IMG/VR virus record: IMGVR_UViG_3300046698_000051
Location: 1-32,129 of that record
Source: a virus
Direction: 5' to 3' (one strand)
DNA length: 32,129 nt
The stretch's first letter is position 1, and each line of letters starts with the position of its first letter. The notes under the pieces were generated by a model. The model did no database searches. It saw only the letters and a list, made by a program, of their open reading frames with translations, and was not told the DNA's origin. A program made the position numbers and the translations under genes. Positions 1-32,129 of this stretch are shown here, piece by piece.

Positions 1-68
1 CGGCGGCCCAGGCGGCGGCCCAGGCGGCGGCCCCGGCGGCGGGGCTGGCGGCGGCCCAGGCGGCGGCC
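1..68. repeat. 12-bp tandem repeat coding for AAAW units
   Basis: About 5.5 copies of a 12-base unit (cggcggcccagg and variants) run from base 1 to 68. On the minus strand each unit encodes four residues, mostly Ala-Ala-Ala-Trp, with Ser, Pro and Gly variants. The period is a multiple of three, so copy number can change by slippage without breaking the frame. The array may continue beyond the window. Confidence 0.9.
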
Positions 69-376
69 AACTCCTCGTCTGTCGCCTTACCCCACGCGTG
101 TCGCTCTGCCACCTCAACGGCGTTACGGCTGCAGTGGTCGGTCAGTAGATCCCAGACCTTGCGGCCATCGGCCAGAGGAGTATTGCGCACACACCAACAG
201 GCAAACAGTCGCCAGAGGCGCGGGGTGCCAAGTTTGGCTCTGCCCATGATCCACAACATCCAGTCGGGGTTTTTACAATTGGCCCACACGTCGGCCATCG
301 TCGTGTACTGTTTCGCCCATTCTCGGCCATCAGAACAGGCCGCGTGTTTTTTGCAGAAATCAGCTACTTCGCTCAT
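1..376 (-). CDS. Ala/Trp-repeat protein, putative Imm-5-like (3' end cut by window edge)
   Basis: An open frame begins at ATG 376, preceded by TTTTGGAGACGACA (a good SD), and stays open to base 1, so at least 125 codons are present and the C-terminus is missing. The N-terminal part is Cys- and Trp-rich (start MSEVADFCKKHAACSDG) and continues through LFACWCVRNTPLADG and a VEVAERHAWGKATDEEL stretch. It ends in a four-residue repeat rich in AAAW. From memory, proteins with this layout, a short alpha-helical head followed by Ala-rich AAAW/AAAR repeats, occur in many phages and bacteria and are sometimes annotated as putative immunity (Imm-5-like) proteins; I cannot confirm this without a search. 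It follows the VRR-NUC gene by 18 bases, so it is probably the next gene of the replication operon. Function unknown. Confidence 0.75.
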   Translation of the reverse strand, partial: MSEVADFCKKHAACSDGREWAKQYTTMADVWANCKNPDWMLWIMGRAKLGTPRLWRLFACWCVRNTPLADGRKVWDLLTDHCSRNAVEVAERHAWGKATDEELAAAWAAASPAAGAAAWAAAWAA

Positions 377-26395: not shown

Positions 26396-26718
26396 TTACT
26401 CGTCTCCGTAGTGGGCCGCGTGTTAGTTGTCAGGAATTCCCTGACAACTGGCCGCGTCTCGCCGATAAGGTGCGTCGCGTTCACCGTCACAGAGGGGTCT
26501 ACGGTCAACACAATCGCCCCAGAATCAACTTTAACTTTAACCGCGGGTTGGGTCGTAGAGCCAATCTGCACAGGGAACGTCGCGTAGAGGGTCACAACGA
26601 TGCTGCCGGGGGCGAAGTAGGCCGCCGGCTGGCTCTGGGACGCGCCGGTCACTGGCCCGCAGCCGATCAGGGCCGCAAGCGTCAGCGTCAGGATGATCGC
26701 GAGGAGGGCGGATTTCAT
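26392..26718 (-). CDS. small lipoprotein B
   Basis: The start at 26718 overlaps the zinc-finger gene stop as ATGA. Residues 1-20 form a lipoprotein signal (MKSALLAIILTLTL, then AALIGC) with the lipobox cysteine at 20, so the product is predicted to be lipidated and anchored in a membrane. The remaining 88 residues are beta-type, Thr/Val-rich (VVTLYATFPVQIG, GAIVLTVDPSVTVN) and end in a Thr-rich tail. A role as outer-membrane spanin is possible, but it could also be a superinfection-type surface lipoprotein. Its signal peptide is echoed in the chimeric ORF at 27447-27358. Confidence 0.8.
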   Translation of the reverse strand: MKSALLAIILTLTLAALIGCGPVTGASQSQPAAYFAPGSIVVTLYATFPVQIGSTTQPAVKVKVDSGAIVLTVDPSVTVNATHLIGETRPVVREFLTTNTRPTTETSK

Positions 26719-26906
26719 ACCGTCACCCATCCCTTCCCACCGCAACGTTCGCACTTGTGGTTGCCGCACGGTTGCTGATCGAGATAGTAGGTTTTGACCA
26801 TGCACGTCCCGTGGCACACTGGGCATGTGGCGTTGCTGCTCTTGGGGATTCCCGTTCCCAGGAACCCTCCGACAAATTCGCCTTTTTCGTTCTGCGTAAT
26901 GCCCAT
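26715..26906 (-). CDS. small CxxCxGxG zinc-finger protein B
   Basis: The 63-residue protein starts MGITQNEKGEFVGGFLGTG with SD GGGAGGGAGAAAAGACA. It carries two Cys pairs, CPVCHG near residue 28 and CERCGGKGWVTV at the end, of the DnaJ-type CxxCxG knuckle. It should bind one or two zinc ions. It is a paralogue of the gene at 27444-27653: the first 17 residues and the last seven are nearly the same. It is coupled by ATGA to lipoprotein B. Function unknown; in DnaJ such knuckles contact unfolded protein. Confidence 0.85.
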   Translation of the reverse strand: MGITQNEKGEFVGGFLGTGIPKSSNATCPVCHGTCMVKTYYLDQQPCGNHKCERCGGKGWVTV

Positions 26907-26920
26907 TGTCTTTTCTCCCT

Positions 26921-26933
26921 CCCGCCAAGCGGG
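26921..26933 (-). promoter_or_regulatory. CCCGC-hairpin leader of zinc-finger gene B
   Basis: A 5-bp hairpin with a three-base loop (cccgccaagcggg on the plus strand) lies 14 bases before the start codon and just upstream of the SD. Near-identical hairpins precede the genes starting at 27653 and 27925, so this is a shared leader element. Confidence 0.6.
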
Positions 26934-26998
26934 GGATACCTGATAAGCTCATTGCCGGGCAGGATACAATCTTGCGAGTCCCACTCACTTGTCCACAC

Positions 26999-27310
26999 TG
27001 GAGCCGGTGGGAATCGAACCCACGTCCCGTGAAACATTCATCGTCGCCTCACACGCTTCCCGGTTTTGCGGGCCGGATAACCGTACAACAGGGGCGAGCC
27101 GATTGCCCACCGTCCACCAGCGACCTTGCTGTGCCGCACAGTCCGATGCTTGCCCGGTCGTTATCGGAGTCACTTAGGGGCTGGCGGCCTAAGCCGCCTT
27201 GCGGTACGTATTGGCTGTTAAGCCGTGCCTGGAGGATTTAACGTGGCCTACCAGGCGTCCACGGCGTGTAGCGGTCGAATCGTGATTCCGGTCGAATCCA
27301 ATTCGGCCCC
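26999..27310 (-). ncRNA. ssrA: transfer-messenger RNA (tmRNA)
   Basis: The 5' end (27310) reads GGGGCCGAATTGGATTCGAC, the classic tmRNA start. The 3' end reads CGGCTCCA (27006-26999). The seven-pair acceptor stem GGGGCCG/CGGCTCC contains G3:U70, the alanine identity pair, and A73. The T arm is GTGGGTTCGATTCCCAC (5-bp stem, seven-base loop). No CCA is encoded. The tag frame is 27215-27189, and downstream GC-rich stems are consistent with pseudoknots. At 312 nt it is slightly shorter than E. coli tmRNA (363). tmRNA rescues ribosomes stalled on broken mRNA together with SmpB; no smpB is seen here, so host SmpB would be needed. Phage-borne tmRNAs are known but uncommon. Confidence 0.95.
27189..27215 (-). 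other. tmRNA tag-coding segment (A)ANTYRKAA-stop
   Basis: From the likely resume codon GCC (27215) the frame reads Ala-Asn-Thr-Tyr-Arg-Lys-Ala-Ala-TAG; a further Ala comes from the charged tmRNA. The stop codon lies in the loop of a 6-bp hairpin (GGCGGC, TTAG, GCCGCC), as in other tmRNAs. The Ala-Ala end fits the usual degron ending, but the preceding Arg-Lys is unlike the Leu-Ala-Ala type. Confidence 0.85.
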
Positions 27311-27327
27311 ATATTCAATTGTCAATC

Positions 27328-27359
27328 AGACCATTTCCGTGATGTCGGGAATATGGTCT
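27328..27359 (-). terminator. hairpin upstream of tmRNA, at the end of the chimeric ORF
   Basis: On the minus strand AGACCAT (27359-27353) pairs with ATGGTCT (27334-27328), and TTCC with GGAA inside, separated by one unpaired A, around a nine-base loop. It overlaps the TAG of the chimeric ORF and ends 17 bases before the tmRNA 5' end. No T run follows. It may end readthrough or guide processing of the tmRNA precursor. Confidence 0.45.
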
Positions 27360-27411
27360 ACTTCTTCTGGTGGCTGCGAATCACTGCCAGCCGCGCACGA
27401 ATGTCCGCCAG
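27334..27411. repeat. direct repeat copy 1 (78 bp, partner at 27960-28037)
   Basis: Bases 27334-27399 are identical to 27960-28025; with two mismatches the match extends to 27411/28037. In the partner this is the 3' end of lipoprotein A plus its downstream flank. Here it forms the 3' part of the chimeric ORF. Confidence 0.95.
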
Positions 27412-27447
27412 GGCCAGCGTCAGGATGATGGCGAGGAAGGGCTTCAT
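27358..27447 (-). pseudogene. chimeric lipoprotein remnant (29 codons)
   Basis: ATG 27447 overlaps the zinc-finger A stop as ATGA. The first 14 codons (MKPFLAIILTLALA) copy the signal peptide of lipoprotein B (MKSALLAIILTLTLA). The last 16 (ADIRARLAVIRSHQKK) copy the C-terminus of lipoprotein A (ADLRARLAVIRSHQKK). The lipobox cysteine and the whole mature region are missing. It is best explained by an internal deletion or recombination joining two lipoprotein genes. The ORF remains intact, so a short membrane peptide could still be made. Confidence 0.8.
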
Positions 27448-27653
27448 ACCGTCACCCAACCCTTACCCGCACACCCATGACAGGGCTTCATGCCTGGTGG
27501 GGCCGACGTTGACACGGCGTTAGGGTTAATGTGGGGCATAACTTGCCCCGAGCCAAGACAAACCGGGCAAAGTTGAGCACGAGGAGCAGGCTTTGTTTCT
27601 GTTCCCAGGAACCCGCCAACGAATTCGCCTTTTTCATTCTGCGTGATGCCCAC
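27444..27653 (-). CDS. small CxxCxGxG zinc-finger protein A
   Basis: A GTG at 27653 is taken as start because it aligns with the ATG of the paralogue at 26906 and follows GGAGAGTGAC; an ATG four codons upstream overlaps this SD. The 69-residue protein has CPVCLGSGQV and CHGCAGKGWVTV, two DnaJ-like zinc knuckles, separated by a longer spacer than in paralogue B. Its end overlaps the chimeric lipoprotein remnant as ATGA, in the same way as its paralogue overlaps lipoprotein B. This shows that a two-gene unit was duplicated. Function unknown. Confidence 0.85.
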   Translation of the reverse strand: MGITQNEKGEFVGGFLGTETKPAPRAQLCPVCLGSGQVMPHINPNAVSTSAPPGMKPCHGCAGKGWVTV

Positions 27654-27665
27654 GTCACTCTCCAT

Positions 27666-27678
27666 CCCGCCATGCGGG
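27666..27678 (-). promoter_or_regulatory. CCCGC-hairpin leader of zinc-finger gene A
   Basis: cccgc (27666-27670) and gcggg (27674-27678) form a 5-bp stem 12 bases before the GTG start. This is the second copy of the leader; its loop is one base different from the other two. Confidence 0.55.
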
Positions 27679-27679
27679 G

Positions 27680-27925
27680 CTACTTGCCAGCGGGCCGAAC
27701 GTCTAAGCCCTTTTCCTTGAGGATTGCCATTAGGTCATCGACATGCAGGCAGTCGCACATGCACGCGCCGACTGTGGCCGTCAAAATCGGTGCGATGGTT
27801 CCGTTGCAGAAATCGTTGCCAGGAGTGGCGTTAAACAACACGCCAACAGCATCGATCTTGCCGTCAAAACCGAGCTTGATAATTGTGTCGCCGTTCTTCG
27901 CTTCGCGTCCGTTCCTGTAGTGCAT
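27680..27925 (-). CDS. hypothetical 81-residue Cys-containing protein
   Basis: Starts MHYRNGREAKNGDTIIKL with SD GGAGAAGGAAAACAAAG. The N-terminal half (HYRNGREAKNGDTIIKLGFDGKIDAVGVL) looks like a small beta barrel, as in short phage proteins with a GREAKxGD opening. The C-terminal half holds three close cysteines (GACMCDCLHVDDL) and may bind a metal. It lies between lipoprotein A and zinc-finger A and carries the same hairpin leader as the zinc-finger genes. Function unknown. Confidence 0.8.
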   Translation of the reverse strand: MHYRNGREAKNGDTIIKLGFDGKIDAVGVLFNATPGNDFCNGTIAPILTATVGACMCDCLHVDDLMAILKEKGLDVRPAGK

Positions 27926-27940
27926 CTTTGTTTTCCTTCT

Positions 27941-27953
27941 CCCGCCAAGCGGG
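27941..27953 (-). promoter_or_regulatory. CCCGC-hairpin leader of the 81-residue gene
   Basis: cccgccaagcggg on the plus strand folds as a 5-bp hairpin 15 bases before ATG 27925. It is identical to the 26921-26933 copy, although the genes downstream are unrelated. Confidence 0.6.
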
Positions 27954-27959
27954 GTACCT

Positions 27960-28037
27960 TTTCCGTGATGTCGGGAATATGGTCTACTTCTTCTGGTGGC
28001 TGCGAATCACTGCCAGCCGCGCACGCAAGTCCGCCAG
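27960..28037. repeat. direct repeat copy 2 (partner at 27334-27411)
   Basis: Covers the last 18 codons of lipoprotein A and 24 bases after its stop. It is identical to copy 1 over 66 bases; the copies are 626 bases apart. The zinc-finger A gene and the 81-residue gene lie between them. Confidence 0.95.
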
Positions 28038-31386: not shown

Positions 31387-32129
31387 ATACCATCACCTCC
31401 ATGCGTTGCCCCGGACGTATATCCAGAAATGACGCCCGTCGTGGTTTCGCCCCGTGCCCCTTGGGGGGTAACGGGGGGTACCTTGGCGATTTTTCGTCGG
31501 TGGACGGGGTAGGAACGTCGGTGGACGGGGTAGGAACGGCCGTTGGAGGCGAGCCACGTGGCCGGTGCAGGCGTGGCGCCCGCAGGCGTGGCAGCCACTG
31601 GCGACGGCGGCACTGGCGGCATGGCCGCTGTAGTGTGCGCCTGGGCGACGACGCCATCGGGCGTTATGCCGTCGTCGCTAGTGGCTGCGGGCAGTGCGCC
31701 TCCGGCGGTGGTGTACTCCGGCAGGGCGGGTGCCGCGGGCGTGGCCGCAATGGGCGTAGATATGTTGCCATTGCAATTACTAACGGGTGTTGATACGTCT
31801 AGTAACTCGTCCGCCGTGAGCAATGGCGTTGCCGCCACGGGCGTTGCCGTCGGCGGCGTCGCCGCTATGACGGTACTGTCTACATGCGTCGGCGCATCGA
31901 CGCCGAGACCCAACACGCGAAGATCGTTGAGCCGTGCCGTCTCCGCGGCGACCACGGCGTCATAACGCGCCACCTGCGCGATGCCCACTGTGAGGTTGTC
32001 GGAGTATGCGGAGTACGTGCGGCCTATCGCCTCGAGATGTTTGTATGCGTCGGCCTCCCTGCCTGCCAGGACGCAGGCGACATGTCGCGCCCAGTGGCGC
32101 TGCCGCAATGACGGGATATCGGTAGGGCA
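31383..32129 (-). CDS. Pro/Ala/Thr-rich protein (5' end cut by window edge)
   Basis: The frame is open through base 32129, so the N-terminus lies outside; the first internal start, a TTG at 32108, is probably not real. The visible 248 residues begin with a compact helical part (RQRHWARHVACVLAGREADAY, then GRTYSAYSDN). After about residue 80 comes a long low-complexity region with many ATP, VAATP and PAP repeats, and a basic SYPVHRRSYPVHRR tandem motif near the end. It may be a structural protein with a flexible linker. No domain is recognised. Confidence 0.7.
   Translation of the reverse strand, partial: CPTDIPSLRQRHWARHVACVLAGREADAYKHLEAIGRTYSAYSDNLTVGIAQVARYDAVVAAETARLNDLRVLGLGVDAPTHVDSTVIAATPPTATPVAATPLLTADELLDVSTPVSNCNGNISTPIAATPAAPALPEYTTAGGALPAATSDDGITPDGVVAQAHTTAAMPPVPPSPVAATPAGATPAPATWLASNGRSYPVHRRSYPVHRRKIAKVPPVTPQGARGETTTGVISGYTSGATHGGDGI
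31495..31536. repeat. 21-bp tandem repeat, two copies
   Basis: cgtcggtggacggggtaggaa is present exactly twice (31495-31515 and 31516-31536). It encodes two copies of a seven-residue SYPVHRR-type unit and keeps the frame. Confidence 0.9.

Follow-up and report, generated by a model that had tools for sequence, protein, structure and literature searches.

The presence of tmRNA genes in phages is already known, and the question raised by the locus described here is what kind of tmRNA is carried by a small phage whose virion genes are T7-like, where this RNA came from, and what its tag would do to the proteins that receive it. The locus lies in a metagenomic contig of 32,129 nucleotides from a short-tailed phage, hereafter the window. 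What is added here is a rare residue in the tag and a kinship with planctomycete tmRNAs.

A complete one-piece tmRNA gene

Positions 26999 to 27310 of the window are a complete one-piece tmRNA gene (Table 1). ARAGORN called a tmRNA at exactly this interval on the minus strand, with the tag ANTYRKAA*, and Rfam RF00023 matched positions 26996-27310 of the same strand over the full span of the model, with 81.1 bits (E 3.6e-30) against a gathering cut-off of 47 bits. RF00023 was the sole family match above cut-off in the Rfam scan of the window, and ARAGORN made no tmRNA call in 100 mononucleotide-shuffled windows. An initial annotation had named a tmRNA at these exact coordinates and had proposed Infernal with Rfam models and ARAGORN as a check; the two programs agree with it. 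The Rfam score is lower than the lowest of 139 bacterial tmRNAs of a planctomycete order (range, 95 to 195 bits), the phage RNA is ~35 nt shorter than the tmRNAs of that order, and the folding z-score of the entire phage RNA is -2.07.

Table 1. Features of the tmRNA gene and its immediate neighborhood (window coordinates)
Feature	Position	Strand	Basis
One-piece tmRNA gene (ssrA), complete, 312 nt	26999..27310	-	ARAGORN; Rfam RF00023
Acceptor stem, 5' strand GGGGCCG, G3 pairing U70	27304..27310	-	Positions computed; pairing read from sequence
Acceptor stem, 3' strand CGGCUCC + A73, then GTG (no encoded CCA)	26999..27006	-	
GGAUUCGAC block of tRNA-like domain	27291..27299	-	
T arm GUGGG-UUCGAUU-CCCAC	27007..27023	-	
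PK1, CGUGG:CCACG crossed by GCCUGG:CCAGGC	27227..27263	-	
UAACA immediately 5' of resume codon	27216..27220	-	Sequence
Tag frame GCC AAT ACG TAC CGC AAG GCG GCT TAG = ANTYRKAA*	27189..27215	-	
Stop-codon hairpin GGCGGC-UUAG-GCCGCC, 6 bp	27183..27198	-	
Probable PK2, UCCGAU:AUCGGA crossed by CGACC:GGUCG, hairpin CUGUG-CGG-CACAG between	27121..27168	-	Pairing by eye
Small ORF, copy B, weakly DnaJ-zinc-finger-like	27444..27665	-	Pfam match below curated cut-off
Small ORF, copy A of same cassette	26715..26906	-	
29-aa hybrid ORF MKPFLAIILTLALADIRARLAVIRSHQKK, start of one lipoprotein-like ORF + end of another	27358..27447	-	

Each part that had been claimed for this RNA, namely, the acceptor with G3:U70 and A73, the GGAUUCGAC block, the T arm, the tag frame, and the stop hairpin, was found. 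The acceptor is of the alanine-identity type, and the UAG of the tag frame sits in the loop of the stop hairpin. U and A at positions -5 and -4 relative to the GCC resume codon occupy the places of U85 and A86 of Escherichia coli tmRNA, the latter of which is critical for frame setting (PMC2481249). Both PK1 stems are fully paired and lie at the homologous position; in the chromosomal tmRNA of one Phycisphaerales genome (L054), the first stem is the same and the second, GCAUGC:GCAUGC, is different yet paired. Since the PK1 score alone was matched by 27 of 200 shuffles, the argument for PK1 rests on its homologous place and its motif. At -19.7 kcal/mol, the P2 helix is weaker than that of four bacterial relatives (-27 to -30 kcal/mol), and equally good values arose in 60 of 500 shuffles. 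No CCA is encoded after the phage tmRNA, GTG coming next, and no sigma-70-like promoter was found near the gene. The absent CCA had escaped the initial annotation, as had the Phycisphaerales kinship and the lysine of the tag described below.

Phage context and dependence on the host

The tmRNA gene is located between phage genes, all on one strand, in the window as well as in L003, an overlapping contig from another dataset. By their PHROG matches, the proteins encoded in the window include a head-tail adaptor, a major head protein, tail proteins, an internal virion protein, and a terminase; adaptor and tail protein are ~25 to 36% like their counterparts in Pelagibacter podophages. The large terminase (TerL) belongs to the GpA ATPase family, and the term T7-like thus fits the virion genes, not the whole genome. 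With this restriction, the sequence supports the earlier view of a complete phage-borne tmRNA alongside T7-like virion genes. Over 16.4 kb, L003 and the window are separated by 3 SNPs and one 6-bp deletion, which leave the tmRNA unchanged. The two contigs are assemblies of a single virus population, and their agreement is no demonstration of purifying selection on the tmRNA. The window holds only part of the genome, since L003 continues for a further 1,709 bases after position 32129.

SmpB is encoded neither in the window nor in L003, an incomplete contig, and the tmRNA would therefore need host SmpB, a dependence already deduced in the initial annotation and upheld by the SmpB search of both contigs. 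Likewise, host AlaRS would be needed, and, since CCA is absent from the gene, the CCA-adding enzyme of the host.

The tmRNA is surrounded by a duplicated cassette that pairs a lipoprotein-like ORF with one weakly resembling a DnaJ zinc finger (window 26673-28037). The position of the tmRNA between the two copies, together with the adjoining hybrid ORF of 29 amino acids, is a sign of local recombination. An 81-aa ORF at window positions 27680-27925 is 71% identical to L011:2743-2985; in L011, whose TerL is 44% identical to that of the window, this ORF is kept and no tmRNA lies between it and TerL. The higher identity of the ORF than of TerL suggests exchange or strong constraint. Upstream of TerL, no tmRNA was present in L006, L011, or L012, although these contigs reach far enough (L002 starts too near TerL), and tblastn of seven window proteins against the collected viral tmRNA loci gave no match. 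Repeats are found toward both contig ends: 12-nt GGCGGCCCAGGC-type repeats at window positions 1-80 and a perfect 21-nt tandem pair at 31495-31536.

Kinship with planctomycete tmRNAs

GTDB species genomes were scanned for loci sharing the acceptor and T-arm letters of the phage RNA; the 33 loci returned were mostly from Phycisphaerales or other Planctomycetota and also from Alcanivorax. The planctomycete examples have short tags and usually lack an encoded CCA. In a tree of tmRNA ends, whose sampling is dominated by one order, the phage RNA fell into a clade of 129 bacterial tmRNAs that contains no other viral one (support 0.953), and its top BLAST relatives were all within the bacterial clade set. 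Identity over the ends to any compared bacterial tmRNA was at most about 64%. BLAST with the whole RNA at E 1e-7 gave matches in 3 of 294 Planctomycetota genomes, in 0 of 299 genomes of the phylum of Alcanivorax, and in 0 of 150 genomes of the Gemmatimonadetes phylum. With Phycisphaerales chromosomal tmRNAs such as that of L054, the phage RNA has in common the GGGGCCGANNUGGAUUCGACCG 5' end, the CGGCUCCA 3' end, and the first PK1 stem, and it resembles them further in the usual lack of an encoded CCA and in a short A-N tag. It differs from them in being ~35 nt shorter, in having a weaker P2 helix, and in the tag, where Lys replaces Leu.

That the closest tmRNAs are found in Phycisphaerales is suggestive of a planctomycete origin of the gene and is not proof of a host, although the kinship perhaps also points to the host of this phage. 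TerL produced only distant matches, in 7 of 294 Planctomycetota genomes, and we therefore draw no host link from it. Three loci that matched the 5' pattern (L063-L065) proved to be protein-coding sequence, not tmRNA. On a contig binned as Dehalococcoidia, L025:3961-4307 is a tmRNA with the tag AERPYALAA, otherwise found here only in loci of Phycisphaerales or of the planctomycete order sampled; this contig is possibly mis-binned.

The ANTYRKAA tag

The phage tag ANTYRKAA corresponds to ANNYRLAA in L054. ARAGORN tag calls were obtained for 147 bacterial tmRNAs. The last three residues are LAA in 125 and MAA in 17; the remaining 5 calls, of unusual length and sequence, were taken to be miscalls, and 18 more bacterial loci gave no tag call. 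None of the 142 bacterial tags with a terminal AA thus had an antepenultimate lysine. The viral tmRNA sample comes from several pattern scans and is non-random. It holds, among the matches listed, at least 161 unique tmRNAs, at least 149 of which end in x-A-A (x being L in 108, M in 18, V in 10, I in 8, Y in 2, and A, F, and K in 1 each). Besides the window's own, the sole viral lysine among the matches listed (1 of 149) is that of L321, with the tag GNPMLKAA; all other tags of this set have a hydrophobic residue or Ala there. An IMG/VR-wide scan for K/R-A-A-stop at tmRNA spacing likewise recovered as real tmRNAs only this virus and L321; a further hit, L322, carries the pattern by chance and is not a tmRNA by ARAGORN or Rfam. 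The K/R-A-A pattern had no match in 294 Planctomycetota genomes, in a layout whose Leu/Met/Phe-codon version recovers 35 of the 147 bacterial tmRNAs. This layout is insensitive, and the absence of the lysine from bacterial tags is therefore carried by the ARAGORN survey. The lysine is not forced by the stem of the stop hairpin, in which only the third base of AAG pairs.

The second viral KAA-tag tmRNA, L321:4663-4958, has an encoded CCA, scores 136.5 bits with Rfam, and is located on an 80,753-base contig. A different tag type was seen in 41 of the 147 bacterial calls (the order of L191-L320): these tags have 17 to 23 residues and share the motif (G/A)R(I/V)GF in their interior, as in ANDNIAGRIGFAPARLAA; this conserved interior might be an adaptor site.

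For ClpX, the terminal Ala-Ala is the main determinant, and a change of the antepenultimate Leu leads to a modest rise in KM (PMC7652416). The C-terminal ClpX signal of MuA, RRKKAI, is itself basic (PMC8138137). Together, these data lead us to expect that ANTYRKAA is in most cases a weakened, not a dead, degron, and to give less weight to a reading in which tagged fragments are spared; the tag is probably a weaker degron rather than inert.

Possible roles of the phage tmRNA

We consider it likely that this is a functional phage-borne tmRNA of long-ago Phycisphaerales-like origin, acting in host-dependent rescue with a tag that is somewhat less efficiently degraded. The sequence itself shows the gene with its parts, its phage setting, and its tag; expression, charging, tagging, the fate of the tag, and the host are what we infer. 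As putative roles, the initial annotation had named rescue on cleaved mRNA and a swap of the host tag for a phage tag. The donor of the gene, in the distant past, would have been a planctomycete-like (Phycisphaerales) bacterium. In the infected cell, the RNA would receive its CCA and then be charged with alanine by host AlaRS, and host SmpB would bring it to ribosomes stalled on broken mRNA. These ribosomes would be freed and (A)ANTYRKAA added to the nascent fragments, which, with Ala-Ala kept and Lys replacing the Leu/Met of the relatives, would probably be degraded, if somewhat less efficiently. Counted against this explanation are the low Rfam score, the shorter RNA, and the weaker P2 compared to bacterial relatives, as well as the failure to find a sigma-70-like promoter nearby, thin host evidence, and tree sampling dominated by one order.

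It is also conceivable, if unlikely, that the altered tag lets ribosomes be freed without efficient proteolysis, so that tagged phage fragments remain in the cell or the tagging by the host is outcompeted; the RNA would then be the natural equivalent of tmRNAs engineered in the laboratory to add protease-resistant tags. Such a role would agree with the near absence of the lysine from other AA-ending tags, bacterial and viral, with the IMG/VR-wide recovery of only one other virus, and with a stem that does not impose it, but the supporting pattern scan is insensitive, Ala-Ala is retained, ClpXP is only modestly affected by the change of Leu, and ClpX recognizes the basic signal of MuA. The more specific proposal, that a change from Leu/Met-Ala-Ala to Lys-Ala-Ala keeps rescue while phage fragments are spared or passed to another protease and that the unrelated-looking L321 arrived independently at the same solution, appears quite unlikely.

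We find it improbable that the tmRNA is decaying or vestigial, with little activity. The low Rfam score, short RNA, and weak P2 might be read in this way, as might the rearranged neighborhood with its duplicated cassette and hybrid ORF; however, all landmarks tested (tRNA-like domain, PK1, frame-setting bases, and stop hairpin) are intact, and the tag still spans A-N to A-A-stop. A decoy that sequesters host SmpB or trans-translation has been proposed for mycobacteriophage DS6A, whose RNA consists of the TLD only (discussed in PMC4131195). Such a decoy would have no use for the full tag frame, stop hairpin, and PK1 found here, and we regard this role as very improbable. Capture of a host ssrA through assembly error or a prophage attachment site is scarcely credible, even though ssrA is often an integration site (PMC12656738), given a complete gene with phage genes on both sides in two assemblies, at most about 64% identity over the ends to the compared bacterial tmRNAs, and no integrase among the ORFs scanned, a subset of those of the window.

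Relation to known phage tmRNAs

Phages with a tmRNA of their own are a known, if infrequent, occurrence. The initial annotation overstated the rarity of phage tmRNAs, which also occur outside large mycobacteriophages: of 18,146 phage genomes surveyed in 2021, as cited in PMC9004378, 402 had a tmRNA gene, with 133 unique structures, and many IMG/VR contigs carry them. Those of mycobacteriophages (Bxz1 and Wildcat) and Bacillus phage G are listed in PMC4131195. The GenBank-annotated tmRNA of Streptomyces phage Faust is likewise a complete one-piece tmRNA with its own tag (ANSKNASAYALAA) and of similar size (298 nt), but its tag ends in LAA and not in KAA, and it resides in a 131-kb genome, in contrast to the T7-like virion genes here. 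From the known one-piece tmRNAs of phages, the present RNA is distinguished by its sequence kinship with planctomycete tmRNAs. The tmRNA of Melnitz, a methylophage of OM43, is also closer to bacteria of another lineage than to phages (PMC9004378); unlike the one described here, it is two-piece, permuted, and riboswitch-linked and belongs to a 141-kb myophage.

With this locus, a small phage whose virion genes are T7-like joins the known carriers of a tmRNA, and its tmRNA is tied to those of planctomycetes. Should the lysine weaken degradation, this phage could serve as a natural experiment on what phages want: ribosome rescue, fragment destruction, or both.
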